A stretch of DNA of 64,000 nt from Anabaena sp. UHCC 0187. Its GTDB lineage: Bacteria; Cyanobacteriota; Cyanobacteriia; Cyanobacteriales; Nostocaceae. The notes beneath the pieces are model-generated. The model was not told the origin of the DNA and ran no database searches. It was given only the letters and a program-made list of their open reading frames with translations. Where the stretch lies: NCBI RefSeq assembly GCF_009712035.1, contig NZ_VILB01000013.1, positions 540,426-604,425 on the forward strand, in the 5' to 3' direction. Shown here in pieces: positions 22,003 to 39,476 of the stretch; positions within the stretch are counted from its first letter, which is position 1, and the number at the start of each line of letters is the position of its first letter. Both the position numbers and the translations under genes were made by a program.

Positions 22003-22119
22003 CACTATTCTTACCTCCTTCTAATTCTTCCTCCTGACTCCTGACTCCTAGCCCATGACTTACGTCACGCTGCGCTATCACGAAAAGACTTTTATGGCTT
22101 ACGCCACGCCCCGCTATCA

Positions 22120-22145
22120 GCAAGCCCTATTTAAATAGGGTTTGC
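22120..22145. other. 26-bp near-perfect palindrome
   Basis: GCAAGCCCTATTT / AAATAGGGTTTGC, with one G-T type mismatch, between the 785-residue gene and the acyl-AMP ligase gene. It could be a terminator stem without a T run, or an operator for the downstream cassette. The 100 bases before it are low-copy repeat debris with ACGCCACGCCCCGCTATC-like motifs. Confidence 0.6.
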
Positions 22146-22262
22146 TCACCGCCAAACCAAACGCAGATGTTACAAATTGTCATAATCAGAATGGGGAATG
22201 TAGTTTAAAATCATCACGGTTGCAGTAAATTAATCCTATCTATTCTATTTATTAATGTTGGT

Positions 22263-24032
22263 ATGAGGAATCCAGAAAAGCAATATTCAACTTTAGTACA
22301 AATGCTACGGCATCAGGCATTCCATCAACCTAACCAAATAGTATTTAGGTTTCTTCACAATGGAGAACAAGAAACAGATAAATTAACATATCAAGAGTTA
22401 GACCAAAAAGCCAGAGCCATTGCATATCAACTACGTCAAACTATTAATCGGGGTGAAAGGGTATTATTGCTATATCCGCCTGGTTTAGAATTTATTAGCG
22501 CCTTCTTTGGATGTTTATATGCTGATGCGATCGCCGTTCCCGTGAATCCCCCACGACCAAACAGACCAGCGAATCGACTTTTAGCAATCAAATCCGATTC
22601 ACAAGCGACATTAGCAATCACTACAACCTCTCTATTAAACAAACTACAACTCAAACTAACTAATTATTTAGAATTAGCAACTTTACCTTTAATAACTACC
22701 GATGACATTAATCTTAACCTAGCTTCAGAATGGCAGCCATCAACAGCAAACATAGACTCTTTAGCCTTTCTCCAATACACATCAGGATCTACAGGTACAC
22801 CTAAAGGAGTAATGGTCACTCATGGTAATCTACTGCATAATTCAGAGTATATAAAACAAGCATTTGAACTCACACCAGAAAGCGTGTCTGTCAGTTGGCT
22901 ACCCAGTTTTCATGATATGGGTCTAATTGATGGGATTATTCAACCCTTGTACACCGGATTTCTGACAGTTTTGATGGGACCTGAATTTTTTATCCAGTCC
23001 CCTGGGCGATGGCTACAGGCGATTACAAACTATAAAGCTACTCACTGCGGTGGACCCAACTTTGCCTATGATATTTGCACTCAAAAGATTACACCTCAAC
23101 AAATGGAATCCCTGGATCTAAGTAGCTGGGAAAGTGCTTACAGTGGTTCAGAACCGGTGAGAAGGGATACTTTAGAGAATTTTACTGCTAAATTTGCCCC
23201 TTATGGTTTCCGTGCCAACTGTTTCTACCCCTGCTATGGTATGGCTGAATCTACGTTAATGATTTCCGGCGGACGAATTCAAGAAAAACCAATTTACTGC
23301 ACAGTTGCAGCAGAAGCATTAGAACAAAAATTGGTGATAGAAACATCTGAAGACAGCCAAAATATCAGACATATAGTTGGATGTGGACGAGCTTGGCTGA
23401 ATACAGAAATCGTTATAGTTGAACCAGAATCGCTTCAGCAGTGTACTTCCGAACAAATAGGAGAAATATGGGTATCAGGTGAAAGTGTTGCCCAAGGCTA
23501 TTGGAACCAACCAGAACTTTCAGAAACAGCCTTTGGTGCTTATTTAGCAAATACTAATGAAGGTCCGTTTCTCCGCACTGGGGATCTGGGATTTTTGCGA
23601 GATGGTGAGTTGTTCATTACTGGACGGATGAAGGATCTGATTATTATCAGAGGTCGCAATTATTATCCCCAAGATATCGAACTCACAGCAGAAAGCAGCC
23701 ATCCAGCTTTGCGTGCTAATTGTTGTGCAACTTTTGCCATAGAACAAGACAATATAGAGCAGTTGATAGTTGTGGTTGAAGTTGAACGTACACACCTGCG
23801 GCATCTGAATGTCAAAGATGTAGTAGCAGCAATCTCCGAAGCAATCATGCAGCAACATGAAATCCATGCTTATGGTATGGTGCTGATTAAAACTGGCAGT
23901 ATTCCTAAAACTTCCAGTGGCAAAATTCAACGGCGTATTTGCAAAGAAAAGTTTCTTGACCAAACTCTGAATATTGTAGGAGGAAAAATTGGCAACTCAG
24001 AGTTATCAAGTCCTTTAATTTTAACTGCATAA
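22263..24032 (+). CDS. Fatty acyl-AMP ligase (FAAL)
   Basis: Activates a free fatty acid as acyl-adenylate and passes it to an acyl carrier protein instead of CoA. The 589 residues are typical of FAALs. Motifs are the P-loop LQYTSGSTGTPKGVMVTHGNL, SWLPSFHDMGLIDG (typical of FAALs), NCFYPCYGMAEST, FLRTGDLGFL and ITGRMKDLIIIRGRNYYPQDIE. The C-terminal GKIQRRICKEKFL carries the catalytic lysine region. It heads a co-directional cassette: four desaturases, ACP and DUF302 follow. The only interruption is a 66-bp hairpin repeat in the 144-base gap before the first desaturase. Confidence 0.93.
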   Translation: MRNPEKQYSTLVQMLRHQAFHQPNQIVFRFLHNGEQETDKLTYQELDQKARAIAYQLRQTINRGERVLLLYPPGLEFISAFFGCLYADAIAVPVNPPRPNRPANRLLAIKSDSQATLAITTTSLLNKLQLKLTNYLELATLPLITTDDINLNLASEWQPSTANIDSLAFLQYTSGSTGTPKGVMVTHGNLLHNSEYIKQAFELTPESVSVSWLPSFHDMGLIDGIIQPLYTGFLTVLMGPEFFIQSPGRWLQAITNYKATHCGGPNFAYDICTQKITPQQMESLDLSSWESAYSGSEPVRRDTLENFTAKFAPYGFRANCFYPCYGMAESTLMISGGRIQEKPIYCTVAAEALEQKLVIETSEDSQNIRHIVGCGRAWLNTEIVIVEPESLQQCTSEQIGEIWVSGESVAQGYWNQPELSETAFGAYLANTNEGPFLRTGDLGFLRDGELFITGRMKDLIIIRGRNYYPQDIELTAESSHPALRANCCATFAIEQDNIEQLIVVVEVERTHLRHLNVKDVVAAISEAIMQQHEIHAYGMVLIKTGSIPKTSSGKIQRRICKEKFLDQTLNIVGGKIGNSELSSPLILTA

Positions 24033-24058
24033 ATTGTCAGAATTCAGGTGAGGCGATA

Positions 24059-24124
24059 AGATCCCCGACTTCTTTTATGATTGTGTCCATAAATTATAAA
24101 TTGATCTGGTGAAGTCGGGGATCT
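24059..24124. repeat. 66-bp dispersed hairpin repeat, copy 2
   Basis: Ends AGATCCCCGACTTC / GAAGTCGGGGATCT, perfect over 14 bases. Same length and ends as the copy at 9277-9342; the inside is different. It lies between the FAAL gene and the first desaturase and may act as an mRNA processing or attenuation hairpin. Confidence 0.88.
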
Positions 24125-24176
24125 GGATATGAATGATTTCTATAGCTGAATACTTACCATAAATTGAGGAAATACA

Positions 24177-25163
24177 ATGTCCATACCATTGGATAGCCCC
24201 GCACAACATCAAGGACCAAAGATAACCATAGAAAATGATTATCTCAAATCCCTGCAACAGCGTTACGCCTTTGCTACTATCTTGATTCCTTTTTTTGGGT
24301 TAGTAATAGCCATCTATACAACTTTTAAGTTTGGTATCAGTCCAGTAGAAATTGAACTATTCCTGGTAATGTATACCTTGACAATGTTGGGAATAACAGT
24401 GGGTTTTCATCGACATTTTGCCCACTGTGCTTTTGCATCCAATACATTCATTAGAGTCCTATTGGCGATATTGGGGTCTATGTCCGCTCAAGGACCAGTC
24501 ATCCAATGGGCAAGTATTCACCGTAGGCATCACAAATATAGCGATCGCCCCGGTGATCCCCATTCACCCCTAATCTACCAAGGAGAAAAATGGGGAACTT
24601 TGCGGGGATTGTGGCATGGGCAAGTTGCCTGGATGTTGAACAGTGACGTTACAAATACGGCTGTTTTTGCCAAAGACTTGCTCAGAGATCCAATTATCAG
24701 CAAAGTCAATCGTTTGTATCTGACTTGGGTTGTTCTTGGTTTAGCCATTCCTGCTATCTTAGACGGACTTTTTACCTGGACTTGGACAGGCATTTTACAG
24801 GGATTTCTTTGGGGAGGATTGGTGCGAATCTTTTGCGTCAATCATGCCTTTTGGACGATTAATTCCATTGCCCATTATTATGGACAGCGCCCTTTTGAGA
24901 CAGAAGAACACAGCCATAACACATTCTGGCTATCCCTAGCCAACTTTGGCGAAGCTTGGCACAACAATCATCATGCCTTTCCCCACTCAGCCCTCTTGGG
25001 TTTGAAATGGTGGCAAATTGATATTGGTGGTTGGGTGATTCTTGCTCTAAAAAAAGTAGGTTTAGTTTGGGATCTCAAAACCCCCACAGCAGGGATGATC
25101 ACAGAAAAATTGAATGTTCACAAACAGTCTGAATATTCAAAATTAGATGTCAACAACTTCTAG
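24177..25163 (+). CDS. Membrane fatty acyl desaturase 1 of 4 (DesC-like)
   Basis: A di-iron membrane desaturase of the delta-9/stearoyl type, 328 residues. All three histidine boxes are intact: HRHFAH (78-83), HRRHH (115-119) and HNNHH (262-266), plus the accessory NSIAH (229-233). Four hydrophobic segments flank them (for example ATILIPFFGLVIAIYTTF). It is the first of four adjacent, clearly divergent paralogues downstream of a FAAL. That place suggests an acyl-ACP-bound substrate rather than a membrane lipid, by analogy with JamB. Position of the double bond cannot be read from the sequence. Confidence 0.93.
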   Translation: MSIPLDSPAQHQGPKITIENDYLKSLQQRYAFATILIPFFGLVIAIYTTFKFGISPVEIELFLVMYTLTMLGITVGFHRHFAHCAFASNTFIRVLLAILGSMSAQGPVIQWASIHRRHHKYSDRPGDPHSPLIYQGEKWGTLRGLWHGQVAWMLNSDVTNTAVFAKDLLRDPIISKVNRLYLTWVVLGLAIPAILDGLFTWTWTGILQGFLWGGLVRIFCVNHAFWTINSIAHYYGQRPFETEEHSHNTFWLSLANFGEAWHNNHHAFPHSALLGLKWWQIDIGGWVILALKKVGLVWDLKTPTAGMITEKLNVHKQSEYSKLDVNNF

Positions 25164-25236
25164 CCAACTTGACTAGAATCCAGATTGTTGTGTACTGACA
25201 AATTTTTCTATTGCCAAATATTAGAGGATTTAGAAA

Positions 25237-26190
25237 ATGACAACACATTTCGATAGTACAATACCAAATCAAAAAACAAAAGTTATCATCAATGACTACA
25301 TCAAAGGATTGCAATATAAGCATTTTTGGTGGTACAACTTCATTCCCTTTTTAGGAACAATTGTGGCGCTAATTTCCCTCTGGTGGCTACCCATTGGACC
25401 CATCGAGATCGGGATGCTGATTGCCATGTGGGCTTTGACCATGACCGGCGTAAGTGTAGGTTTTCATCGCTACTATACCCATCGTTCTTTTAAAACTCAC
25501 CAGGTAATGCGGGTAATATTCGCCATCCTTGGTTCTATAGCTGGGCAAGGTCCATTAATTTCCTGGGTAGCCGTCCATCGTCGTCATCATGAATGTAGTG
25601 ACCTACCCGGAGATCCCCATTCTCCAAATCTTCACGGTCAGGGATTTTTGGGAACTATCAAAGGATTATGGCATTCCCATGTCGGCTGGTTAATTGATCA
25701 TGATTATCCTAATCCCACATATTATGCTCCCGAACTCCTGCGAGATCAAACCATATCCAAAATTAGCCGATTTTATCTAGTTTGGATACTTCTTGGTCTA
25801 GCTATTCCCACTGTGATCGGCGGACTACTTCATTGGTCATTGATAGGAGCATTGCAAGGCTTTCTTTGGGCTGGTATCGTGCGAATTTTTCTTGTAGATA
25901 ACATTATCTTGAGTGTTAATTCTGTATCTCATGTCTATGGGACTCATCCTTATGAAACAGGAGATCAAAGTAAGAATAACCCTTGGATAGCAATCCCCAC
26001 TTTTGGAGAGTCTTGGCAAAACAATCACCATGCCTTTGAAAGCTCCGCTGCTATTGGTTTGAAATGGTGGCAAGTTGACTTTGGTTATGCAGTGGTTTGG
26101 ATATTAGCAAAATTAGGCTTGGTCTGGGATGTAAATCTACCCACAGTCAAGATGATGGCAGCGAAAAGAATTACCATAGCTCAGGACTAA
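25237..26190 (+). CDS. Membrane fatty acyl desaturase 2 of 4, altered third histidine box
   Basis: 317 residues, same family. Box 1 is HRYYTH (77-82) and box 2 HRRHH (114-118). The third box reads QNNHH (261-265): the first His found in the other three paralogues is Gln here. NSVSH (228-232) is kept. The downstream motif is DQSKNN where others have DHSRNN or similar. The substitution removes an expected iron ligand, so the enzyme may be inactive, may use another ligand, or may have changed chemistry such as acetylenase or hydroxylase activity; which one is not decidable here. The gap to the previous gene is 73 bases. Confidence 0.92.
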   Translation: MTTHFDSTIPNQKTKVIINDYIKGLQYKHFWWYNFIPFLGTIVALISLWWLPIGPIEIGMLIAMWALTMTGVSVGFHRYYTHRSFKTHQVMRVIFAILGSIAGQGPLISWVAVHRRHHECSDLPGDPHSPNLHGQGFLGTIKGLWHSHVGWLIDHDYPNPTYYAPELLRDQTISKISRFYLVWILLGLAIPTVIGGLLHWSLIGALQGFLWAGIVRIFLVDNIILSVNSVSHVYGTHPYETGDQSKNNPWIAIPTFGESWQNNHHAFESSAAIGLKWWQVDFGYAVVWILAKLGLVWDVNLPTVKMMAAKRITIAQD

Positions 26191-26227
26191 ATTCCCGACT
26201 ACAAAATCAATGTAGGTTGAGCAAACA

Positions 26228-27160
26228 ATGCAAGTAATAACAATCAAAAGCGATCGCCTGAAAAGACAACAGGAAATTCACGGCATCACTAATCTCATTA
26301 TTCCCTTTCTCGGCTCTGTTGCCGCAGTCATCCTAGCTGTTCAGATCGGTGTGAGTGCCGTAGACATCTGGCTGCTGCTGATTATGTATTTTTTAACAGC
26401 GATTGGCGTAACAGTAGGACTACATAGACACTTTGCTCACTGCTCCTTTCAAGCTCATCAAACTGTCAAAATTATCCTTGCTGTCCTGGGTTCTATGGCC
26501 GCAGAAGGACCCCTAAATTATTGGGTAGCTACCCATCGTCGTCACCACAAATACAGCGATACCCCCGGAGATCCCCATTCCCCCTTTATCAAAGAAGACA
26601 AAAAATTGGGTTTTCTCGAAGGACTATGGCATTCTCATGTCGGTTGGACATTCAATCATGAACTCACTAACACTTTTATCTTTGCCAAAGACATGGTGCG
26701 AGATCCGATCATGAACAAAATTAGCCAACTCTATTATTTATGGTTGTTTTTAGGGGTAGCTATTCCCGGTGTTATTGGTGGCATCATCTCAGGAACTTGG
26801 ATGGGTGCGTTAACAGGAACATTATGGGGTGGCTTTCTCCGCATCTTCCTCCAACACCATTTAGGCTTCTGGACCGTTGGCTCTCTTGCCCATCTATTAG
26901 GAAATCGTCCTTTTCATACTGACGACTATAGCCGTAATAACCTATGGGTGGCTTTGTTTACCTGTGGAGAATGGCACAACAACCATCACGCTTTTCCTAA
27001 TGCAGCAATTCATAGTTTCCAATGGTGGCAATTAGATATGGGTGGCTTAGTGATTCAACTACTAGAAAAGCTCGGTTTGGTTTGGGATCTGAAAATGCCC
27101 ACAAATGAGATGATCGCCGCTAAAAAAAGAAAGGTTAGTGCTACTGAAGCCATCAATTAA
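26228..27160 (+). CDS. Membrane fatty acyl desaturase 3 of 4, Asn ligand replaced by Gly
   Basis: 310 residues, the shortest paralogue. Boxes are HRHFAH (66-71), HRRHH (103-107) and HNNHH (250-254). The accessory motif reads GSLAH (218-222) instead of NSxxH; in stearoyl-CoA desaturase structures this Asn takes part in metal coordination. One residue is also missing just before the third box (CGEWHNNHH against FGEAWHNNHH). Gap to the previous gene is 37 bases, with the start at ATG 26228. Confidence 0.92.
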   Translation: MQVITIKSDRLKRQQEIHGITNLIIPFLGSVAAVILAVQIGVSAVDIWLLLIMYFLTAIGVTVGLHRHFAHCSFQAHQTVKIILAVLGSMAAEGPLNYWVATHRRHHKYSDTPGDPHSPFIKEDKKLGFLEGLWHSHVGWTFNHELTNTFIFAKDMVRDPIMNKISQLYYLWLFLGVAIPGVIGGIISGTWMGALTGTLWGGFLRIFLQHHLGFWTVGSLAHLLGNRPFHTDDYSRNNLWVALFTCGEWHNNHHAFPNAAIHSFQWWQLDMGGLVIQLLEKLGLVWDLKMPTNEMIAAKKRKVSATEAIN

Positions 27161-27208
27161 CCTTCAAGTCAGGCATGAAATACACCAAAGCAATCATCAA
27201 GAGCAACA

Positions 27209-28189
27209 ATGGATTTAACTTCTCAAGTAATTACAGAACCTCTTGTCAATCCAGATAAGAGACAAAAAACTGTAACAGCCCCTCATCTGACAGTTCCTCA
27301 AACCATTCACTTCATCTTGTTTGAAGTTGTACCTTTTTTGGGATTCATCACCGCCATTGTTTTACTGTGGTGGATTCCCCTTAATTGGGTGAACTTAGGA
27401 CTGTTTATCAGTCTATGGTTTCTCACTCAAATTGGATTTACTGTGGGTTGGCATCGACTTTTTAGCCACAATGCTTTTAAGGCCAATGTCGTCGTTCGGG
27501 TAACTTTGGCAATTCTTGGCTCTATGGCTGCCCCCGGTCCTTTGCTTTTGGCAGTAGCCGCCCATCGTCGTCATCATGAATATGCTGATCAACCAGGAGA
27601 TCCCCATTCTCCCCATCTCTTTGGAGCAGGATTTGGTGGTCAGATCAAAGGCTTTTGGCACGCTCATGACGGCTGGTTAGCTACCAATAGAGAACACCCC
27701 AATACCATCCACTATGTCCCGGACTTACTGCGCGATCAAGCACTTACAACAGTCAGCCGATATTATTTGCTGTGGGTGACTTTAGGACTGGTAATTCCTG
27801 CTATTGTAGGCGGAGTTTTCACAAACTCATGGCTGGGAGCATTCCAAGGCTTTCTTTGGGGAGGATTGGTGCGGATGTTCTTCGTTAATAACCTGATCAA
27901 TGGTGTCAACTCTTTCTCTCACGTCCTTGGAGGTCGCTCCTTTAATACCCCAGATCACAGCCGAAACAATCTCTGGCTGGCTCTCCCTTCCTTGGGTGAA
28001 GGATGGCACAATAGTCACCATGCTTTTCCTCAATCAGCCATTTTCGGTTTCGACTGGTGGCAAATTGATATCGGTGGCTGGGTCGTCCTGCTTTTAGAAA
28101 AGCTGGGTTTAATTTCCGATGTCAAGATTCCTACAGCCGATACTATCAAAGCTAAAAAAGCCTTTTTAGCAGCTAGAAAGGCCACATAG
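27209..28189 (+). CDS. Membrane fatty acyl desaturase 4 of 4
   Basis: 326 residues, all boxes complete: HRLFSH (82-87), HRRHH (119-123) and HNSHH near residue 271, with NSFSH. The N-terminus is about 10-25 residues longer than in the other paralogues. HRLFSHNAF in place of HRHFAH and WHNSHHAF in place of WHNNHHAF mark it as the most diverged copy with complete ligands. Forty-eight bases after desaturase 3. Confidence 0.93.
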   Translation: MDLTSQVITEPLVNPDKRQKTVTAPHLTVPQTIHFILFEVVPFLGFITAIVLLWWIPLNWVNLGLFISLWFLTQIGFTVGWHRLFSHNAFKANVVVRVTLAILGSMAAPGPLLLAVAAHRRHHEYADQPGDPHSPHLFGAGFGGQIKGFWHAHDGWLATNREHPNTIHYVPDLLRDQALTTVSRYYLLWVTLGLVIPAIVGGVFTNSWLGAFQGFLWGGLVRMFFVNNLINGVNSFSHVLGGRSFNTPDHSRNNLWLALPSLGEGWHNSHHAFPQSAIFGFDWWQIDIGGWVVLLLEKLGLISDVKIPTADTIKAKKAFLAARKAT

Positions 28190-28254
28190 CCGGATTGCAC
28201 TTTTAACCACCTAATCAAAGTTTTTATCTCAGATCAATTCAGGAGAAAATACCG

Positions 28255-28527
28255 ATGAAAATGCCAAATCAAGAGATTATTGCCGAAAAACAGCAAACTG
28301 TGACCGCTATTCAAGCCTGGTTAGTTTCCTATTTATCCCAACTTTTGGAAATTGATCAAAATGAAGTCAATGTGACAACTTCTTTTGACCGCTATGGTTT
28401 GGATTCCTCTGCAACTATTGGATTAACTACCGATTTAGGTGATTGGTTGGGACGTTCTATTGATCCAACTATCACCTATGATTACCCCTCAATTGAGTCT
28501 CTATCAGAACATCTATCTGGATCATAA
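28255..28527 (+). CDS. Acyl carrier protein of the FAAL-desaturase cassette
   Basis: A free-standing ACP of 90 residues. The phosphopantetheine serine lies in RYGLDSSATIGLTTDLGDWLG. The N-terminal helix EKQQTVTAIQAWLVSYLSQLL and the end YDYPSIESLSEHLSGS are typical of ACPs paired with FAALs in cyanobacterial natural product clusters, and unlike the fatty acid synthase AcpP. It is 65 bases after desaturase 4 and in the same orientation, so it is the likely acyl acceptor. Confidence 0.93.
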   Translation: MKMPNQEIIAEKQQTVTAIQAWLVSYLSQLLEIDQNEVNVTTSFDRYGLDSSATIGLTTDLGDWLGRSIDPTITYDYPSIESLSEHLSGS

Positions 28528-28625
28528 GCTAATTCAGGTCTGAGAAAATATTAACCCCCTTGCTATTAGCTGGGGGGCTAAAAATTAGATATTTAGAATA
28601 TTTGTCAAATCAGAAATCAAGAGAT

Positions 28626-29117
28626 ATGGAAATTATTAATTTCACAGTAACTCATGTAAAAGTTTGTTCAGAAAAATCTTATACCCAAGTTACCACTGCT
28701 ATAGAGTCATTAGTTGGTAAAGCTAATAATCTAATTTTTCAAAAGCTGATAGATGCAAATGCCTCTTTTACAGATGTAGAAAATGCAGTTAAATCAATGG
28801 TTGGTAAAAATGATCTGATGATTTTTACACACCTGGAATCTGGTAAAGTGCTTTCCTTATGTGGCAAATTTAAACAAGCAAAACTCTATATTATTGGCAA
28901 CCCGCTCATAGCTAATCGAATGTTTGAAGAAGATCCGTCCGTCGGGCTTTATGTTCCCCTGCGACTTTTTGTGTATGATGAATATAATGGTAAAACTTGC
29001 ATTATCTATGACAAACCTTCATCTCTCTTAGCTAGATTTGAAAATCAGAAAATTTTGAGGGTTGCAGAAATGCTCGATCAAAAGTTGGCAGAATTAGTGA
29101 CAATGGCTGTCCAATAG
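28626..29117 (+). CDS. DUF302 domain protein
   Basis: 163 residues from ATG 28626 (MEIINFTVTHVKVCSEKSYT); the TTG at 28560 would add 22 unlikely residues. The DUF302 pattern covers most of the protein: TAIESLVGK, a second SMVGKNDLMIFTHLESGKVLSLCG, AKLYIIGNPLIANRMFEEDPSVGLYVPLRLFVYDE in pieces, and a C-terminal helix. No enzymatic function is established for the family. It is the last gene of the cassette, 98 bases after the ACP, so a role in binding the hydrophobic product or substrate is conceivable. Confidence 0.82.
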   Translation: MEIINFTVTHVKVCSEKSYTQVTTAIESLVGKANNLIFQKLIDANASFTDVENAVKSMVGKNDLMIFTHLESGKVLSLCGKFKQAKLYIIGNPLIANRMFEEDPSVGLYVPLRLFVYDEYNGKTCIIYDKPSSLLARFENQKILRVAEMLDQKLAELVTMAVQ

Positions 29118-29119
29118 TA

Positions 29120-29215
29120 TTAGGACTTACGCACAAGTTACGGAATAACGAACCGCAGAGGACGCAGAGAACACAGAGGAATGAGGGTTTGAGAGAGATT
29201 TTGCGTAAGTCCTAA
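29120..29215. repeat. 96-bp inverted-repeat element (MITE-like)
   Basis: Perfect 14-base ends TTAGGACTTACGCA / TGCGTAAGTCCTAA. The inside has the CGCAGAGGACGCAGAGAACA motif that I know as widely scattered in Nostocales genomes. It starts three bases after the DUF302 stop and closes the FAAL-desaturase cassette. A related run (CGCAAAGGCGCAAAGG) lies at 29250-29265. Confidence 0.85.
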
Positions 29216-29272
29216 GTATATCAGGAGTCAAAGTTAATAAAAGTTTCGCGCAAAGGCGCAAAGGAATAAAGA

Positions 29273-30760
29273 CTAAAATACTTCTAAGCCCGGAAACTGT
29301 CCCATTTTTTGAGCTTGTGCAGCTTCTCCACAAGTATGAGGTGTAGGGAATATCTTACCAGGATTTGCTAAACCTTGAGGATTAAAAGCTAGGCGTAACA
29401 GTTGCATTGTCTCTAAGTCAGCATCATTGAACATTTCCGGCATTAAACATTTTTTATCAGCACCAATACCATGTTCTCCAGAAATACTTCCACCCACTCT
29501 TACACAAAGTTTGAGAATTTCGCCACTTAATTCTTCCACCTGTTTAAAAGCACCAGAAACAGAATGATTATAAAGAATGACTGGATGTAAGTTACCATCA
29601 CCAGCATGAAGGGTGTTAGCAATACGATACCCATATTTATTTCCCAACGCGGCAATTTCTTTGAGGACAGATGCTAATTGAGTCCGCGGGATAACTCCAT
29701 CTTGGAGAAAATAATTACTCTGATATCCTAAAGCAATTAGGGCAGTTTTACGCCCTTGCCATAGTTTCACGCGCATTTGTTGGTCACTAGCAATAATTAC
29801 ATTCCTGGCTCCGTTTTGTTGACAAATTTTAGCAACCTGCTGTTTATTGCTTTCCACTTCTACTGCTAAACCATCAAGCTCTATCAATAAAACCGCCGCC
29901 GCATCTCTAGGATAACATCCTGTATTAATAACATCTTCTATGGCATTAATTGTCATATTATCCATTAGTTCCATCGCCGCCGGCATAATTCCAGCACTAA
30001 TAATATTAGTGACGGCATTTCCTGCGTCTTCAATAGTGGCAAAGTCTGCTAGAAGTGTACCAATGGCTTCAGGTGTCTTAATAATGCGTAAAGTGATTTC
30101 TGTAGCAATGCCTAAAGTGCCTTCTGAACCAACAAATAAGCCTGTGAGGTCATAACCAGGCATTTCTGGAATCATTCCCCCAACATCGACCACAGAACCA
30201 TCAGTAATTACCAATTTTAATCCCAAAACATGATTGGTTGTCACACCATATTTCAAGCAATGAATACCACCAGCATTCTCCGCAATGTTGCCTCCAATTG
30301 TGCAAACAGTTTGACTGGAAGGATCTGGCGCATAGTAAAATCCACTACCACTAATGGCTTGAGTTACCCAATTATTGATGACCCCTGCTTGGACAATAAT
30401 CAGTTGATTTTCTAGGTCAACTTTCAATATTTGCTTCATCAATGTGGTGACAATTAAAACACAATTTTCAACTGGTAGCGCACCTCCAGATATACCTGTC
30501 CCCGCACCCCGTGTCACCCAAGGAATTTGTTTTTGATGGCAAATTTTGACTACTTCTGCTACTTGTTCTGTGGTGCGTGGTAGTACAACTAATGCTGGAC
30601 GTTGACGATAGCTAGTTAAACTATCACATTCATAGGTGAGTAATTCTTCTCGGCGTTGAATAACACTTTTTTTGCCCACTATTGCCTCAAATTTTTGGGC
30701 AATTTTTCGCCATTCAGTTGGTTTTGTTTGTAGATGAGGGAGAATATTTTTAGGAATCAT
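29273..30760 (-). CDS. glcD: Glycolate dehydrogenase / FAD-linked oxidase GlcD
   Basis: Oxidises glycolate (or D-lactate) to the keto acid; in cyanobacteria it takes part in photorespiratory glycolate recycling. The 495 residues have the FAD_binding_4 domain first (RGAGTGISGGALPVENCVL, NIAENAGGIHCLKYGVT, GSEGTLGIATEITLR) and the FAD-oxidase C-terminal domain after it (LHAGDGNLHPVILY, SGEHGIGADKK). The next repeated element has replaced any partner gene: no glcE/glcF lies here. Its ATG overlaps the CATG shared with the opposite strand, and grxC copy 2 starts 41 bases away in the other direction. Confidence 0.92.
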   Translation of the reverse strand: MIPKNILPHLQTKPTEWRKIAQKFEAIVGKKSVIQRREELLTYECDSLTSYRQRPALVVLPRTTEQVAEVVKICHQKQIPWVTRGAGTGISGGALPVENCVLIVTTLMKQILKVDLENQLIIVQAGVINNWVTQAISGSGFYYAPDPSSQTVCTIGGNIAENAGGIHCLKYGVTTNHVLGLKLVITDGSVVDVGGMIPEMPGYDLTGLFVGSEGTLGIATEITLRIIKTPEAIGTLLADFATIEDAGNAVTNIISAGIMPAAMELMDNMTINAIEDVINTGCYPRDAAAVLLIELDGLAVEVESNKQQVAKICQQNGARNVIIASDQQMRVKLWQGRKTALIALGYQSNYFLQDGVIPRTQLASVLKEIAALGNKYGYRIANTLHAGDGNLHPVILYNHSVSGAFKQVEELSGEILKLCVRVGGSISGEHGIGADKKCLMPEMFNDADLETMQLLRLAFNPQGLANPGKIFPTPHTCGEAAQAQKMGQFPGLEVF

Positions 30761-30800
30761 GGCTACAATAGAAACACTATTACTCTACATTAAAAATTCC

Positions 30801-31073
30801 ATGACTGCTAAAGTAGAAATTTACACTTGGACTTATTGTCCTTTCTGCCCTAGAGCCAAAGCCTTATTGAAAAACAAAGGTGTTGAATTTACGGAATACT
30901 CTATTGATGGGGATGAGGTTGCTAGAGCGAAGATGGCTGAACGGGCTAATGGCAGACGTAGTGTACCTCAAATTTTCATCAACGATCAACATATTGGTGG
31001 TTTTGACGACATTTCCGCATTAGACAAGCAGGGTAAGCTAGACGAACTTTTAAATACCAAACTGAGTGGCTAA
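30801..31073 (+). CDS. grxC: Glutaredoxin 3, copy 2
   Basis: Paralogue of the gene at 9003. From ATG 30801 (MTAKVEIYTWTYCPFCPRAK) it has 90 residues; an upstream ATG at 30759 would add 14 unrelated residues. Active site CPFC, SVPQIFIND cis-Pro region and GGFDDISALD are canonical. Its 3' end overlaps the convergent gshA gene by 24 bases, so the two glutathione genes are physically locked together. The C-terminus NTKLSG is encoded inside the overlap. Confidence 0.94.
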   Translation: MTAKVEIYTWTYCPFCPRAKALLKNKGVEFTEYSIDGDEVARAKMAERANGRRSVPQIFINDQHIGGFDDISALDKQGKLDELLNTKLSG

Positions 31074-32189
31074 GTCAATTTCTTGCTTGGCCATCTCTTG
31101 AATGGCTTTGGTAATAATTGAACGAATATCAGCACCTTGAGCATACATTTTTAACCATTTTTGTGCGGTATTACCTTCCTGTAAGATTGTTTGCACAGGC
31201 AAAATAAAATGCTCAAAGCCTTGTTGTTTAACTAATGGCAAAACATCATTATAAATCTCATTGATCCAATTACGAGCTAGAATTTTTCTGCCGTCTTGCC
31301 AATGTCTTAACTCAGCATCTAAACTTAATACCTTGACGGCGGCTTCATTAGCTTTTGTTAAATCAATTAAGTCTTGTTTTCTAGTTGTTGCTGGTAATTT
31401 ACTCATTTCTAAAGGGTCGAGGTTAGGATCATTAACCAATTGCCAAAGACGGGCTTCTAACAAAGCAGTAATAGCTAGTAAAGAAGTAGGATCAGTAACT
31501 AAGTCACAGATTCTCAGTTCTAGCCGATTAATATCATAAGGACGGCGATCGCCATTCGGTCGCACATTATCCCAATGATGACGAACATTAAACATTGTCC
31601 CTGCGGCTAAATGTCCTTCTACCCATTCAATATATTCGCCGTGGTTTTCAAATAGGGGAATGTGATATTGGGAATGGGGTAAAATATGCCAGCGTGTAGA
31701 GTGATAACCTGTAGTTTGATTATCCAGAAATGGAGAGGAAGCACTTAAAGCTAAATATAGGGGTGCTTCCATTTTAATGAGACGACAAGCTCGGATTAAT
31801 AATTCTGGGTCACTAAAACCAATGTTGATATGAACACTAGCAGTAACAACATTAGTGCCGTGGTTGCGTTCAATGTATTCTAAATAAGGACTTGTATCTC
31901 CTGAACGATAAAAGCGATCGCTTCTTCCTAATGATAATGTACTGCCAGGAATTACTGTATAATCTCCTAAAGTTTTTAGATATTCTCTGAGTTGAATTCG
32001 CGGTAATATTAATTGACTTAAAAGCTGTTCGTAGCTGTGCAGAGGTTCCGTTGTATATTCTATATGCCGTTCGTCTGTTTCTTGCATAAACCTATCCACT
32101 TTCCCCACAACTTTTTCAGCAAAGGGAATGGGATCACCTTGGGGAGTACCCAAAAACATTTCTAATTCAAAACCTTTAGTTAATAGCAT
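31050..32189 (-). CDS. gshA: Glutamate--cysteine ligase, cyanobacterial type
   Basis: First enzyme of glutathione synthesis. The 379 residues match the cyanobacterial GCS2-like family: MLLTKGFELEMFLGTPQGDPIP, ERHIEYTTEPLHSYEQLL, STLSLGRSDRFYRSGDTSPYLEYIE, HGTNVVTASVHINIGFSDPELL and VRHHWDNVRPNGDRRPYDINRLELRICD in pieces. It overlaps grxC copy 2 tail to tail. gshB lies 20 kb away at 9381. Confidence 0.92.
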   Translation of the reverse strand: MLLTKGFELEMFLGTPQGDPIPFAEKVVGKVDRFMQETDERHIEYTTEPLHSYEQLLSQLILPRIQLREYLKTLGDYTVIPGSTLSLGRSDRFYRSGDTSPYLEYIERNHGTNVVTASVHINIGFSDPELLIRACRLIKMEAPLYLALSASSPFLDNQTTGYHSTRWHILPHSQYHIPLFENHGEYIEWVEGHLAAGTMFNVRHHWDNVRPNGDRRPYDINRLELRICDLVTDPTSLLAITALLEARLWQLVNDPNLDPLEMSKLPATTRKQDLIDLTKANEAAVKVLSLDAELRHWQDGRKILARNWINEIYNDVLPLVKQQGFEHFILPVQTILQEGNTAQKWLKMYAQGADIRSIITKAIQEMAKQEIDLATQFGI

Positions 32190-32208
32190 AGAATTTAATT
32201 CAATTTGA

Positions 32209-33231
32209 TCATTTTAATTCTACTTTCTCCAGGTATTTGGCAATTAGTAGACGGACTGCATTCACTACCGGATCTAAATAAGCCTTGGTTAAATTCGGAT
32301 AAGGCTGTGGCTGGTTTTTGCCAATACCAAACTCTAGTTTCTCCTCTTTTTCTGGTATATATAAAGTGCCAAATATCCAATCCCAAATTCCCAAAAATTC
32401 CCCATAGTTCTTGTTAACGTGTTCGGGTGCTATACTGTGATGAATTTGGTGTAGCACTGGACTCATAAAAATGTGGTTCAATGTCTTTCCATAGGAAAGC
32501 CAGATGTGGGAATGGGCGAGATTACCACCTGCCATATAATATATAGCGACCAAAAAATTCAGACCAAACATGGTCATGAGATGGATTTTACCAAAAAACA
32601 GATAAATTAGTACCGCTTGTAAAGGGGCGCTGATGGCTGTAGTAATCAGCTTTTTATTGAGTTCATATAACGGGTGAGAACGATACAGAGTGATGGGGGT
32701 CAAGACTTCGCTGGAATGATGTAGACTATGAAATTGCCACAGGATAGGATTTTGGTGATGCCAAGCATGATTAAGGTAAGATGCAAAGTCAAAGACTACG
32801 ATAAATAAGATGGTAAAAATCATTAGCGATAACCAATTTTCGGTTATAAATCCGCCGAAATCACCAAAGGTTTCTTGTAGCCAATTATTGACTAGGGATG
32901 CTACCAATGATGTCTCTAACCATGCTAGACGTAAACCACCCGGTGCAAGCATATTATTGATGATAAATAGCTGATAATCAAGCTTTGCTGAAGGATGAAG
33001 ATAGATTTCTTTTGGGAAGCAAAAACTAATAAACCTTTTCAGATTAAGTTCAGACTGAGGTCGTAAACGCCAGTAAACGAATCCGGCTAACAATAAAGAT
33101 GTTAATAAATATACCCAATAAAGGCGACGGCTACCATTAAGGTGATTGGATATCTGACTGCGGAAGTATTCAAGAATCTGCCATAACAATCTTTCTAAAT
33201 CTGCTACCCAACGTGGTAATTCTGCTGTCAT
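32209..33231 (-). CDS. Sterol desaturase / fatty acid hydroxylase superfamily membrane protein
   Basis: 340 residues with several hydrophobic segments (YLLTSLLLAGFVYW, FTILFIVVFDFASYL). Histidine clusters of the superfamily are HAWHH, HSLHH and, near the C-terminus, HQIHHS followed by NYGEFLGIWDWIFGTLY. These predict a non-haem di-iron hydroxylase or desaturase. The substrate is unknown; carotenoid, sterol-like or fatty alcohol substrates are possible. The gap to gshA is 19 bases, same strand, so they may share a message. It lies between the FAAL cassette and the PKS and could modify a lipid product, but this is inference from place only. Confidence 0.85.
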   Translation of the reverse strand: MTAELPRWVADLERLLWQILEYFRSQISNHLNGSRRLYWVYLLTSLLLAGFVYWRLRPQSELNLKRFISFCFPKEIYLHPSAKLDYQLFIINNMLAPGGLRLAWLETSLVASLVNNWLQETFGDFGGFITENWLSLMIFTILFIVVFDFASYLNHAWHHQNPILWQFHSLHHSSEVLTPITLYRSHPLYELNKKLITTAISAPLQAVLIYLFFGKIHLMTMFGLNFLVAIYYMAGGNLAHSHIWLSYGKTLNHIFMSPVLHQIHHSIAPEHVNKNYGEFLGIWDWIFGTLYIPEKEEKLEFGIGKNQPQPYPNLTKAYLDPVVNAVRLLIAKYLEKVELK

Positions 33232-33280
33232 ACTTCTTTGTGATTAGATGTACTAGAAGTGAAAATAGACTAAACAATAT

Positions 33281-34264
33281 TTAGGCTTGTTGATCAAGTG
33301 AAATTTCTCTATCCGTTACTTTCTGAGAGCCTTGACCAGATTTAGCTAAATATATACCAGCCAACACTGTGAAAAAAGCGAACCAGTTGACAATACTTAA
33401 CTTTTCCGCAAATATTACCCAGGCTAATATGGCAGTAATGATTGGATCAAGCAATAGGAACAAAGATACAAAACCTGATGAAAACTTTTTCAAGTTATGG
33501 AACATAATTACTGTAGCCAGCACTTGACAGAAAAGTGCTAAAGAAATCACCGCTAACCATCCGTTTACGGAAACGGGGAAAACTTGCTTATCAAAAATCA
33601 AAGTTATTGGTAACAGCCAAAGAGTTCTGAAAAAACAACTCCAGAGGATGATGGTTGTTGCAGAAAACTTGGCTCTTAGTTTTTCTGCACAGAGAGCATT
33701 TCCAGCATAAAACACAGCCGAGAGTAAAGCTATAGCATCACCTGTAAAGTGAGTGCTGGTCAAGTTAAAATCTTCAAAACCAATGGCGATCGCCCCGACT
33801 GAAGCTAAAATCAAACCCATAATAAATTTGCTGTCAAAACTGTGCTTTAAAAATAGCCACCCCCCTAAAGTGGCGAAAAATGGGGTGAAATTATGCAATA
33901 AATTAGAGTTAGCGATGTTGGTTTGAGTTAAAGACCAAGCCCAAGCAGTTAAGTTGGCTGCACCGAAGCCCGCAGCTAGTACAAACAGTCCTATATCCTG
34001 AAGAGTCCAAGACTCTGGTTGTTCAGGGGATTTCTGGGATACTTTACTACTGATAATTGTGATTACTTCCCACAGCCCAAGGATGACAGTAGAAATCCAA
34101 AAGCGATTAAAGACTGTAGCATTAGGACTAATTTCCAGTTCGCTGACCCTGATAAATATTGGCGCTAGAGATAACATAAACACTGCTATAGGAATTAGCA
34201 GTAGAGTATTCAAGGTTGGTTTTTTTTCAGTCTGTACTTCTGGAACATTGACTGTGGTGGTCAT
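33281..34264 (-). CDS. EamA/DMT-family transporter
   Basis: An integral membrane protein of 327 residues with about ten hydrophobic segments in two EamA repeats (LLLIPIAVFMLSLAPIFIRV at the start; FVSLFLLLDPIITAILAWVIFAE in the second repeat). Drug/metabolite transporters export small metabolites. It is divergent from the PKS gene with a 219-base shared upstream region, and 49 bases separate it from the hydroxylase gene downstream. Export of the PKS product is a natural guess; no direct evidence. Confidence 0.88.
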   Translation of the reverse strand: MTTTVNVPEVQTEKKPTLNTLLLIPIAVFMLSLAPIFIRVSELEISPNATVFNRFWISTVILGLWEVITIISSKVSQKSPEQPESWTLQDIGLFVLAAGFGAANLTAWAWSLTQTNIANSNLLHNFTPFFATLGGWLFLKHSFDSKFIMGLILASVGAIAIGFEDFNLTSTHFTGDAIALLSAVFYAGNALCAEKLRAKFSATTIILWSCFFRTLWLLPITLIFDKQVFPVSVNGWLAVISLALFCQVLATVIMFHNLKKFSSGFVSLFLLLDPIITAILAWVIFAEKLSIVNWFAFFTVLAGIYLAKSGQGSQKVTDREISLDQQA

Positions 34265-34483
34265 AATTTTTTTAGGAATGTTGATTGAACTGCACGTATA
34301 TACTTACCCATGCTTCTACTACGTGGTTGTAGGTAATTCTACAATCAATATACTTGTTATCTGGAGATTTTTTGAACTCGATAGATAAAATGAGTGGTAA
34401 AATCCTAATTTAGCTATTCTTATAGTTGGCACTATCGTCATTATTACGAATTTTCTAGGAATAAATATACAAAGAATATCTTT

Positions 34484-37400
34484 ATGGAAGCTATAGCAAT
34501 AATTGGCATGGGTTGTCGTTTCCCAAAAGCTCAAGATATAGAATCTTTCTGGAAGCTACTCAGGGAAGGAGTAGATGCAATTACAGAGATACCTTTAGAA
34601 CGATGGGATATTAATGATTTATATACTCCCACAGCAGGTACACCAGGAAAAACTGTCTCCCGCTGGGGAGGCTTCTTAGACAAGATAGATCATTTCGAGC
34701 CTGATTTTTTCGACATTTCCGCTAGTAATGCCCAACGTATTGATCCTCATCATAGACTGGTACTAGAGGTAGCTTGGGAATCTTTAGAAAATGCCGGTAT
34801 CGTCCCCAAAACTCTAGCGGGTAGTAAAACTGGGGTATTCATTGGCATGAGCCAAAGCGATCATAATCGGCTCATTTATAAGGATATATCTACCATAGAT
34901 GCCGAAGACGGACCCCATACTTTTCTTTGCTTTGTAGCTAATCGCTTATCTTATTTTTTAAATCTGCAAGGTCCAAGTTTAGCTATTGATACCGCTTGTT
35001 CTTCATCCTTGGTTGCAGTACATTTAGCCTGTCAGAGTTTACGTAGTGGTGAATCTAACTTGGCTATAACTGGAGGAGTATCCCTACGTTTATCCCCGGA
35101 GGAATCAATCGCTCTTTCTCTTAAAGGTATGCTATCACCTCAAGGTCGTTGCCAAACCTTCGATGCTGGAGCTAATGGTTTTGTCAGGGGTGAAGGTTGC
35201 GGTATTATTATACTTAAACGCCTTGACGATGCCCTCAAAGATCAAGACAATATTCTCGCCATCATTAGAGGTTCGGCCGTTAACCAAAATGGTCTTAGTC
35301 ATGGCATTACATCACCTAATGGCATAGCTCAACAAACACTTCTCAGTCAAGCCCTGGAAAATGCGGGAGTAGAACCAACGGAAATTAGTTATGTGGAAAC
35401 CCACGGAACTGCCTCCGGTTTAGGAGATGCTATCGAGTATAAAGCTTTAAAAGCAGTATTGATGCAAAATAGAGAATCACATCAACCTTGTTGGCTTGGC
35501 TCTGTCAAAACTAATATTGGTCATTTAGAAGCAGCCGCCGGTATAGCAGGACTGATCAAGACAACGCTATCATTACAACATCAGCAGATTTTTCCTAATC
35601 TACACTTTAAACAACTAAATCCTTATATTTCTTTAGCAGGAACCACCTTTTCTATCCCCACTGCTTTACAGTCTTGGCATTCTATCACACAGACAAGATT
35701 TGCCGGAGTTAGTTCTTTTGGTTTTGGTGGTACTAACTGTCATATCATTCTGGAAGCAGCCCCTTTATCGTCTCAGCAAAATATCGCCACAAGGGAACGC
35801 CCCCTACATATTCTGACTTTATCAGCTAAAACGGAAAAGGCACTATTAGACTTGGCAAATCTTTATCTAGAAAAGTTGCAGAACCGTGATCTCAATTTTT
35901 CACTGGCAGATTTATGCTTCACTGCTAATACTAGCAGAACTCATTTTCATCATCGTCTGGCTGTAGTAGCAGAATCACGAGAAATATTGATAGAGAAGTT
36001 AGCAGCTATTGTATCAGCAACAAATACTTTCGGAAAAGATCAGAAGCGATCGCTCAATGGTAAACAACCCAAAATAGTATTTTTATTTCCAGATCAAAGT
36101 AGTCAATATCTCAACTCATGTCGTCAACTTTATGAAACTCAACCTACCTTTCGGGCTATTCTAGAACGCTGTCAAGAAATTATTCGCCCTTATTTAGATC
36201 AGCCACTACTAGAAATTTTATATCCAGACAATCAACCAACAACAACTAATCTCCTCAATCAAACAGTCTATACCCAATTTGCCTTATTTGCCCTGGAATA
36301 TGCCCTAGCTGAGTTATGGAAATCCTGGGGCATCATCCCAGATGCAGTTATGGGTTATAGTATGGGCGAATATGTGGCCGCTTGCGTGGCTGGGGTATTT
36401 AGTTTAGAAGATGCCTTTGAGTTAATTGCCCAACGGGAAAATTTAAGATCATCATTGTCCCATGAGGAAGCAACTGTAACTTATTCATCCCCAAAAATTA
36501 GGATCATTTCTCCAGTTACCGCACAACCAATTACAGCAGAAATTGCAACTCCAGAGTATTGGTGTCATCATATCAAGCAGCCAGTTCAATTCGCTGATAG
36601 TATCAAAACACTTCATAATCAAGGTTATCAAGTATTTATAGAGGTAAGTCCTGAGTCTTTACTTCTAGAAATGGGTTCTCAATTCCTAGATCATGGGGTA
36701 GGAATTTGGTTAACAGGTCTGAATGCAAACCAGGAAGACTGGCCACAACTGCTGCAAAATTTAGAAACGCTATATTTACAGGGAGTTTCTATAAATTGGC
36801 ATGGCTTTGATCAGGATTATCCTCGACGGAGGGTGAAAATACCAACTTATCCATTTCAAAGACAACGGTACTGGTTTGATCAGAATGCAAATAGTTTTTA
36901 CCAAACCACTCCATCATCAAATCATACTTCTAATACTTCAACTCCAGAAATAACTTGTGCAAATAGTCTGGAAACTTTATCAAACACAGAGTTACAAACT
37001 GCCACAAATAATGATTCTCCTGAATCAGCACCAGTTATTTTAACTCATACAGCCGCATCAATCGAGAATTGGATAGTCAACTGGCTGCATAAAAATTTAG
37101 AAGTACCAACCAAATTAACCGAGAATAGTAAATCTGAGCAATCTTTTCTAGATTATGGACTCAAATCCATAGAAGCAGTAAAATTAGCCAAAGATTTAGA
37201 AAAATTGCTAGGACGTTCCTTAGAAGCCATCATTGTTTGGAACTTTCCCACTGTGGAAACTTTAGCTCTTCACTTAGCTGGTGAACTAGAAAACCCAGTC
37301 TCAACCCCAAAAGAGGAGCAGAGAAGCTTAATAAAGCAATTACCAATCACCAATTATCAATCACCAAAAAAAGCCATGCAATTTAGTCTGTTATACTTTG

Positions 37401-39256
37401 CCAGTAACGAGGCTGAGTTTAACAGCGACAAGTATAGATTATTGATTGAGGGGTCAAAATTTGCCGATAAATACGGCTTAACCGCAGTTTGGATACCAGA
37501 ACGGCATTTTCACGCCTTTGGTGGACTCTACCCCAATCCTGCCGTCTTAGGTTCTGCCCTAGCGATGGTAACTGATCGCATTCGTATCCGTGCTGGTAGC
37601 GTGGTTTTACCCCTACATAACCCCATCCGAGTAGCTGAAGAATGGGCGGTAGTAGATAATCTCTCCCAAGGACGAGTAGACATTGCTTTTGCCCGTGGTT
37701 GGAACCCGAATGATTTTGTGTTCGCACCTGATAATTTTGCCAATAGTGCAGAAGTGATGTTTTCAGGCATTAAAACAGTACAGAAACTCTGGCAAGGTGA
37801 ATCAATCTCCTTACAGAATGGTATTGGTAAAGAAACCCAAACCAGAATTTACCCCCTACCCAAACAAAAGGAAATAGACATTTGGATTACTTGTACGGGG
37901 GGAAAAGAGAGATTTATGGAAGCTGGTGCTATGGGGGCGAATGTCTTAACAGCCCTTCTGTTTCAACCCATTGAAGAATTAGCTGAAAAAATCGCCTCTT
38001 ATCGAGAGTCACGGGCAAAAAATGGTCATGATCCCGAAGCTGGTCAAGTTACCCTCATGCTGCATACTTTTATTGGCGAAGATATGAACTTAGTGCGCCA
38101 TAAAGTCAGGAAGCCATTTACTAACTATCTAGAAAGTTCAGTCAATTTGTGGAGACATGGTATCACAAGTTTGGATGGTTTGGATGAGAAAGACAAAGAA
38201 CATTTATTGGCTTATGCCTTTGAACGTTATTTTCAAAGTAGTGCCTTAATTGGTACACCAGAAAGCTGTCAGTTAATGGTTGAAAAACTACAAGCAATTG
38301 GCGTTGATGAAATCGCCTGTTTAATTGACTTCGGAATTGATGCAGATGCAGTCATGGCTTCTCTCTATTCCCTCAAAAAACTTAAAGAACAATCTGAGTT
38401 AATGATTGTAACCGATGAAGATAATATCAATCAATCGCTAACAGTAAAAGACAAACAGAGCGTCAATTTACAAACATCACAAACATTACAAATATCAGCA
38501 AAATGGATAATTAACCCCCAACGAAAAGCGAATGCTAAGTTACGTCTTTTCTGTTTACCTTATGCGGGAGGAGATATTTCTGTATTTAAAAATTGGTCTA
38601 ATAATCTACCAGCAGATATTGAAGTTTATCCTCTCCAGCTTGCTTCTCAGAAATCCCCTGGAAGTAAACAACATTTTGATTGTTTGACTTCATTAGTAGC
38701 AGATTTGGCAGAATTTTTGTTGCCCCATCTTGATCAGAAATTTGCTTTTTATGGTCATAGTTTAGGAGCATTAATTAATTTTGAATTGTGTCGTTATTTG
38801 CGTCGTCACCATCATTTGCAACCGATTCATTTCTTTGTCGGCGCTCAACACGCGCCCCAACTTCCTTATCCTTATCCTTCCTTAGAAAATCTTTCTCGCT
38901 CCGAATTACTCAATTTTGTCAAAGATTTAACGAATCTAGAACTATCTGCATCAGTTGGGGAAGATGATACATTTTTGCAGTTGTTACTAAATTCTTTGAA
39001 AGCAGCATCTGTGATTCAAAAAGATAACTATTCTTATACAGAAGAAGTACCGCTAGATTTTCCCATTACTAGCTTTTTTGGTAGCGAGGATAAATTTTTG
39101 AACCAAGAACATCTTTCTGCTTGGAGCGTTCATACTAATAGTTCATTTAGGCTACATAAACTTGATGGTAAACATCTGTTTTTGGAGAGTCATCGAGAGC
39201 AAATTTTACAATTGATATCCCAAGATTTAAGGTTATTTGGTGAAAAGAGCGGTTAG
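34484..39256 (+). CDS. Single-module type I PKS: KS - degenerate AT - ACP - luciferase-like monooxygenase - thioesterase
   Basis: 1590 residues. KS (1-430) has all catalytic residues: C172 in DTACSSS, H307 in ETHGTAS, H347 in NIGHLEA. The AT region (about 528-795) has S626 in GYSMGEY, but the sequence jumps from LIAQRENLRSSLSHEEA to TYSSPKIRIISPVT; the roughly 90-100 residues that normally carry the specificity loop and catalytic His (HAFHSPL type) are gone, and FTGQGSQ is FPDQSSQ. ACP at about 855-935 with S895 (YGLKSIEAV). A MupA/Atu3671-type FMN luciferase-like monooxygenase covers about 964-1295 (MQFSLLYFASNEAEF, VWIPERHFHAFGG, FARGWNPNDF). The thioesterase (about 1325-1590) has YGHSLGAL. 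No KR, DH or ER is present. It needs malonyl loading by another AT, or none. Confidence 0.9.
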   Translation: MEAIAIIGMGCRFPKAQDIESFWKLLREGVDAITEIPLERWDINDLYTPTAGTPGKTVSRWGGFLDKIDHFEPDFFDISASNAQRIDPHHRLVLEVAWESLENAGIVPKTLAGSKTGVFIGMSQSDHNRLIYKDISTIDAEDGPHTFLCFVANRLSYFLNLQGPSLAIDTACSSSLVAVHLACQSLRSGESNLAITGGVSLRLSPEESIALSLKGMLSPQGRCQTFDAGANGFVRGEGCGIIILKRLDDALKDQDNILAIIRGSAVNQNGLSHGITSPNGIAQQTLLSQALENAGVEPTEISYVETHGTASGLGDAIEYKALKAVLMQNRESHQPCWLGSVKTNIGHLEAAAGIAGLIKTTLSLQHQQIFPNLHFKQLNPYISLAGTTFSIPTALQSWHSITQTRFAGVSSFGFGGTNCHIILEAAPLSSQQNIATRERPLHILTLSAKTEKALLDLANLYLEKLQNRDLNFSLADLCFTANTSRTHFHHRLAVVAESREILIEKLAAIVSATNTFGKDQKRSLNGKQPKIVFLFPDQSSQYLNSCRQLYETQPTFRAILERCQEIIRPYLDQPLLEILYPDNQPTTTNLLNQTVYTQFALFALEYALAELWKSWGIIPDAVMGYSMGEYVAACVAGVFSLEDAFELIAQRENLRSSLSHEEATVTYSSPKIRIISPVTAQPITAEIATPEYWCHHIKQPVQFADSIKTLHNQGYQVFIEVSPESLLLEMGSQFLDHGVGIWLTGLNANQEDWPQLLQNLETLYLQGVSINWHGFDQDYPRRRVKIPTYPFQRQRYWFDQNANSFYQTTPSSNHTSNTSTPEITCANSLETLSNTELQTATNNDSPESAPVILTHTAASIENWIVNWLHKNLEVPTKLTENSKSEQSFLDYGLKSIEAVKLAKDLEKLLGRSLEAIIVWNFPTVETLALHLAGELENPVSTPKEEQRSLIKQLPITNYQSPKKAMQFSLLYFASNEAEFNSDKYRLLIEGSKFADKYGLTAVWIPERHFHAFGGLYPNPAVLGSALAMVTDRIRIRAGSVVLPLHNPIRVAEEWAVVDNLSQGRVDIAFARGWNPNDFVFAPDNFANSAEVMFSGIKTVQKLWQGESISLQNGIGKETQTRIYPLPKQKEIDIWITCTGGKERFMEAGAMGANVLTALLFQPIEELAEKIASYRESRAKNGHDPEAGQVTLMLHTFIGEDMNLVRHKVRKPFTNYLESSVNLWRHGITSLDGLDEKDKEHLLAYAFERYFQSSALIGTPESCQLMVEKLQAIGVDEIACLIDFGIDADAVMASLYSLKKLKEQSELMIVTDEDNINQSLTVKDKQSVNLQTSQTLQISAKWIINPQRKANAKLRLFCLPYAGGDISVFKNWSNNLPADIEVYPLQLASQKSPGSKQHFDCLTSLVADLAEFLLPHLDQKFAFYGHSLGALINFELCRYLRRHHHLQPIHFFVGAQHAPQLPYPYPSLENLSRSELLNFVKDLTNLELSASVGEDDTFLQLLLNSLKAASVIQKDNYSYTEEVPLDFPITSFFGSEDKFLNQEHLSAWSVHTNSSFRLHKLDGKHLFLESHREQILQLISQDLRLFGEKSG

Positions 39257-39263
39257 AAACCGC
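39249..39263. other. Hairpin across the PKS stop codon
   Basis: GCGGTT / AACCGC with a three-base loop; the TAG stop (39254-39256) lies in the stem and loop. There is no T run after it, so it is not a classic terminator. Confidence 0.5.
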
Positions 39264-39320
39264 ACGAGATGCTTATATTTCAGCACGCTTTGTAATGCAA
39301 GTGAGCGGTTCGGTCTTGTG

Positions 39321-39340
39321 GTTCGCGTAGCGTCCCGCAG
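39321..39340. repeat. Dispersed GTTCGCGTAGC repeat, copy 1
   Basis: GTTCGCGTAGCGTCCCGCAG here; GTTCGCGTAGC also occurs at 57055 and 61250. All three lie in non-coding DNA near GC-rich imperfect palindromes. Confidence 0.7.
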
Positions 39341-39476
39341 GAAAGGACTGAGCTTTACGGTTAACAGAAAACTTGTAATAAGCTGTGTTAAAAATCTTGA
39401 TAATTTCGCAAATTAGGGAGGATTTTGCAGTAAGCTCAATTTGAATTGTAGTAAGACTTTACAGGACTTTAATTCT

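Follow-up and report, generated by a model that had tools for sequence, protein, structure and literature searches.

An in-frame loss within the AT domain of a mono-modular cyanobacterial PKS with conserved KS, ACP, LLM and TE domains

The window, that is, the whole stretch of 64,000 nucleotides from Anabaena sp. UHCC 0187 that was analysed here, carries a mono-modular PKS gene whose AT domain has lost an internal segment in frame and, judged from its sequence, is almost certainly catalytically dead. The host is a bloom-forming cyanobacterium of the Dolichospermum group, and an orthologue with a complete AT was found in Dolichospermum sp. LEGE 00240, a strain of the same genus. We prefer the reading that a dead AT has been drifting while KS, ACP, LLM and TE have been kept, and that the protein still works as an AT-less module fed by FabD, although we give this combination slightly less than even chances. 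The features of the gene and of the island around it are collected in Table 1.

Table 1. Positions of the PKS, its domains and the surrounding island genes in the window
Feature	Position	Strand	Remarks
Accessory island with PKS, about 17.4 kb	21997..39373	.	Clean empty site in three congeners
Fatty acyl-AMP ligase (FAAL), 589 aa	22263..24032	+	
Four tandem fatty-acid desaturases	24177-25163, 25237-26190, 26228-27160, 27209-28189	+	
Discrete acyl carrier protein (ACP), 90 aa	28255..28527	+	
Second glcD-type FAD oxidase	29273..30760	-	69% to the copy found in all congeners
Glutaredoxin-like ORF	30759..31073	+	Recognised from sequence alone
Second gshA-type glutamate-cysteine ligase	31050..32189	-	56-59% to the copy found in all congeners
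Fatty-acid hydroxylase superfamily gene	32209..33231	-	Deleted in LEGE 00240
EamA-type transporter	33281..34264	-	
Mono-modular PKS gene, 1590 aa	34484..39256	+	KS-AT remnant-ACP-LLM-TE, single open frame (Pfam and NCBIfam)
KS domain	34484..35755	+	Cys172, His307, His347 present (DTACSSS, THGTAS, NIGHLE)
AT remnant	36068..36793	+	FPDQSSQ (36086), GYSMGE with Ser626 (36353), Arg651 in QRE, EVSP (36641)
Deletion junction	36467..36472 (about 36469/36470, ambiguous by a few bases)	+	Lacks 246 bp / 82 aa that LEGE 00240 has
ACP domain	37070..37303	+	Phosphopantetheine Ser in DYGLKS (37151); PF00550
MupA/Atu3671-type FMN-dependent luciferase-like monooxygenase (LLM) domain	37382..38386	+	TIGR04020
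Thioesterase (TE) domain	38540..39229	+	Ser in GHSLGA, Asp in FGSEDK, His in GKHLF present

The window protein keeps intact catalytic motifs in KS, ACP and TE, including the Cys-His-His set of the KS, whose motifs start at residues 169, 306 and 344. The LLM scored 504.7 bits against the NCBIfam profile TIGR04020, for which the curated cut-off is 244.45, and is thus a member of that family. The best KS relatives found were cyanobacterial modules with their own AT. The nearest relatives of the TE (52% and 50%) both lie within PKSs of 2824 residues, of which the annotated one is of the reducing type and differs in architecture from the window PKS.

The Pfam Acyl_transf_1 profile matched the window AT in two pieces, positions 1-125 and 195-280, and about 70 profile positions are missing from contiguous window DNA. 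Alignment with the LEGE 00240 orthologue showed a gap of 246 bp, or 82 residues, which is in frame, and the missing segment includes AFHSPL with the catalytic His (LEGE His729). The lost part is presumably most of the small ferredoxin-like subdomain together with the catalytic His, as we take it from FabD-type ATs. By sequence alignment it corresponds roughly to residues 718-800 of CurL of curacin (PDB 4MZ0), the solved KS-AT structure nearest to the LEGE AT in AT sequence (418.8 bits), whose AT is complete, unlike that of the window. An earlier note, made from the sequence alone, had described an AT that kept its catalytic Ser and lacked the specificity region and the catalytic His, and this description was confirmed (Ser626 is kept, the FHSPL segment is gone), whereas its size for the loss, 90-100 residues or 270-300 bases, proved too large. 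The same note had called the GQGSQ motif degenerate, and FPDQSSQ is indeed specific to the window. In LEGE 00240 the AT is complete, with FPGQGSQ, GYSMGE, AFHSPL and EVGP. Since this intact orthologue carries the same Tyr in GYSMGE, Tyr for His at that position was dismissed as a sign of AT damage. The window AT has neither the Ser-His dyad nor the full fold of a complete AT, and the module lacks a functional cis-AT by that measure. In PksD, an AT relative, mutation of the His in the Ser-His dyad abolished activity (PMC11775670). An AlphaFold2 model of the AT remnant, built from an alignment of two rows, had a mean pLDDT of 41 and was set aside.

LEGE 00240 was the sole source of a PKS orthologue returned by the genome-collection scan (L021, which is contig 8 of G004; 1674 aa, same domains), and no plasmid record searched by tblastn covered 80% of the PKS protein. 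The orthologue lies in a syntenic island, where EamA, gshA and glcD adjoin it too. PF00698 had 74 matches in 16 congeneric genomes, and the window AT was the single one that is internally split; the same deletion was not seen in a second strain among them. An orthologue with an intact AT had also been named beforehand as grounds for rejecting the loss. Such a copy does exist, but the loss stays real and the copy marks it as probably derived. Because the LEGE 00240 copy and ATs elsewhere are intact, the loss most simply appears to have arisen in the window strain, a polarity drawn from two copies and from intact ATs being the rule elsewhere. A few other congener ATs among the 74 matches are merely shortened at an end. 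Two congeners have AT profile matches in short frames that end before the profile does, G001:C1:313044-313853 (783 aa frame, profile 2-254) and G011:C45:102761-103423 (778 aa frame, profile 2-206).

In order to compare the AT with the other domains, KS, AT, LLM and TE of the window and of LEGE 00240 were aligned with homologues taken from further genomes. Losses confined to one of the two strains were then counted over those columns that both strains have and that show at least 90% conservation among the homologues. The AT had 10 window-only and 2 LEGE-only losses in 96 conserved columns. Corresponding counts were 0 and 0 of 102 for the LLM, 1 and 0 of 97 for the KS, and 1 and 2 of 69 for the TE. 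Window-only losses were thus more frequent in the AT than in the LLM (p=0.0006), KS (p=0.005) and TE (p=0.026), and within the AT they exceeded LEGE losses (p=0.039). Most of them fall in motifs: G537D and G539S in GQGSQ, G652E, M655R and Q656S in RGxLMQ, and G722S in EVGP. When the conservation threshold was relaxed, AT losses came to 16 against 12 and 11 against 7 (window against LEGE). The AT-specific decay in these alignments is therefore real but modest, since the LEGE AT also changes fairly fast at looser thresholds. Between the two strains dN/dS was 0.08 for the LLM, 0.20 for the ACP and 0.28 for the TE, and for the AT it ranged from 0.27 (NG86) to 0.41 (YN00) with a dS similar to that of the LLM. 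The KS and the KS-AT linker (34484-36070) had a dS of 0.03-0.16, compared with mostly 0.26-0.44 from AT to TE, which suggests a recombination event whose boundary lies close to where the AT begins and makes the conservation of the KS a weak witness. We infer that the AT has probably been dead for some time and that the remainder of the protein was under selection during that time. This agrees with the earlier view of a stable in-frame loss, given the open frame, the conserved flanking domains and the decay specific to the AT.

Three congeners (G006, G015 and G005) match the window up to 21996 and then from 39374 within 1-2 bases, and these empty sites define the PKS-bearing stretch as an accessory island that the three congeners lack. 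Its ends showed no terminal repeats. It was considered that glcD and gshA might be housekeeping genes dividing two unrelated loci, but every congener has one copy of each and only the window genome and G004 have two, so that the island genes are second copies and the stretch forms a single island. Orthologues of FAAL and of the PKS with high identity occurred in the same 2 of 16 congeneric genomes, and FAAL relatives at 60-64% adjoin KS-AT PKSs without desaturases or LLM. In G004, the downstream neighbour gene ycf48 is on a separate contig, and at the end of the contig that carries the LEGE cassette there is a frame that looks transposase-like by eye.

This patchy distribution is also what one might see if the module had been put out of action by the AT lesion and both gene and pathway were heading for loss, the open frames meaning only that little time has elapsed. 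In LEGE 00240 the island is damaged at other genes: a deletion of 157 bp, which is not divisible by three, takes the start of the fourth desaturase (L077 1233-1979, minus strand, against window 27209-28189), and the hydroxylase is deleted with its last part fused to the EamA frame (L021 3332-4444, minus strand, against window 32209-34264). These lesions make decay of the pathway credible, and the window strain has acquired no dedicated trans-AT. However, if the whole gene were neutral, about 8 losses in the LLM and about 6 in the TE would be expected by scaling from the AT, and 0 and 1 were seen. Stop mutations are available at 6.8 per 100 nonsynonymous ones, and several stops should have arisen in the PKS under early decay, but there is none across its 1590 codons. 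FAAL, desaturases and ACP of the island also have a dN/dS of 0.12-0.25, which argues against a pathway in decay. We consider early decay a strong rival account of the window PKS, and the main one, though well short of even chances.

If the module is active, its ACP would have to be charged by another enzyme. The AT profile detected four other PKS proteins and FabD in the window genome; FabD (294 aa, intact) lies about 231 kb from the PKS on the same contig, is the only stand-alone AT genome-wide, and no discrete AT was detected within the PKS cluster. The earlier suggestion of a trans-acting AT is plausible, and the search for a stand-alone enzyme that went with it did return FabD, but a dedicated trans-AT is missing, leaving just FabD and the ATs of the other PKSs. 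MupA hydroxylates beta-keto, not beta-hydroxy, acyl-ACP (PMC10952193), so a working LLM would imply extension by the KS, and malonyl would be required on the ACP. An AT-null DEBS module 6 works with the malonyl-CoA:ACP transacylase of S. coelicolor, and FabD acts as a trans-AT for the AT-less barnesin PKS (PMC6164871; PMC13096860). Since FabD-type enzymes can charge AT-less modules, supply by FabD would be the simplest route to an active module, and by analogy with these systems it is our leading explanation for the source of malonyl.

Under the FabD-fed reading, the starting point would be an ordinary cis-AT single-module PKS (KS-AT-ACP-LLM-TE) within a lipid-type biosynthetic island. In this strain the 82 AT residues with the catalytic His would have been lost, leaving the AT to drift and KS, ACP, LLM and TE to be retained. 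FAAL and the desaturases may load the discrete ACP with an unsaturated acyl chain, which the KS would accept, and the FabD of fatty-acid synthesis would charge the predicted PKS ACP with malonyl in trans. The KS would then extend the chain, the LLM would hydroxylate the resulting beta-ketoacyl chain at its alpha carbon, and release would fall to the TE. It is also conceivable, though we hold this well below even chances, that the gene represents an early step of a natural transition from cis-AT to trans-AT, in which the AT rest serves as a scaffold between KS and ACP, FabD feeds the module, and the related strain has the ancestral cis-AT.

The need for malonyl would disappear if the KS merely passed on the fatty acyl chain, or if FAAL loaded it directly, and LLM and TE acted on the unextended chain. 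FAAL and ACP are close by, and in trans-AT systems a non-elongating KS0 goes together with alpha-hydroxylation bimodules (PMC10952193). The KS nevertheless retains its complete Cys-His-His set and the studied MupA requires a beta-keto substrate, which implies an extended chain; the earlier proposal of a KS working without extension is accordingly weakened, and we regard it as unlikely. An assembly error that removed 246 bp, conceivable for a draft genome of 57 contigs, is very improbable, because the junction has no direct repeat on its flanks, the contig extends over 781 kb, and the independent window-only losses of conserved AT residues (such as G537D, G539S, G652E, M655R and G722S) would not be created by a collapsed assembly; the gap is also in frame, and the junction codons diverge from the LEGE 00240 orthologue.

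Truncated or inactive ATs in natural PKS modules have already been reported, and the window PKS is another case. AT-null DEBS module 6 (PMC6164871) is likewise a cis-AT module with a non-functional AT and with KS and ACP remaining, but it was engineered and complemented in trans, whereas the loss in the window PKS is natural, partial and in frame. PepC of pepstatin biosynthesis is a PKS with a 'truncated AT domain' (PMC12081711) and, like the window PKS, a natural small one; the two are likened by description, leaving sequences and extent of truncation aside. Clusters related to that of PepC have cis-AT or AT-less versions, and its pathway differs from that of the window PKS and has a known product. 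Module 12 of irumamycin is a further case of a truncated or inactive AT (PMC11672594). BrnF of barnesin (PMC13096860) shares with the window PKS a single module with TE, no working AT and no dedicated trans-AT in the cluster, but in BrnF the AT is wholly absent and KR-DH is present, whereas the window PKS has an AT remnant and an LLM after the ACP. In the alpha-hydroxylation bimodule of mupirocin (PMC10952193), a MupA-family LLM also occurs with KS and ACP; there MupA is a separate protein of a trans-AT system, and in the window the LLM is fused behind the ACP. Because the cluster encodes no AT and an AT remnant is still in place, we would not class the window PKS among the trans-AT PKSs.

What is unusual here is that a single gene in a single island is intact in one strain of a pair and broken in the other. 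Such a pair, in which one PKS has a working AT and its counterpart does not, amounts to a natural experiment on AT loss, which bears on the origin of trans-AT systems and on the tolerance of an AT remnant as scaffold. In addition, the FAAL-desaturase-ACP cassette beside a PKS with an LLM makes the island a candidate for producing an oxidised unsaturated lipid, as yet undescribed, in bloom cyanobacteria. The row of FAAL, desaturases and discrete ACP in the island recalls the JamABC cassette for alkynes and the polyyne clusters of bacteria (PMC8406139), a likeness of domain content and order only. Polyyne clusters also have two further desaturases, a thioesterase gene and a rubredoxin gene. Compared with those clusters, the island has four desaturases and is without a rubredoxin or a discrete TE: the rubredoxin at 41872-42216 falls outside the island, and a TE occurs only as a domain of the PKS. 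In the second desaturase (25237-26190), the third histidine box reads QNNHH, not HNNHH, in both strains.
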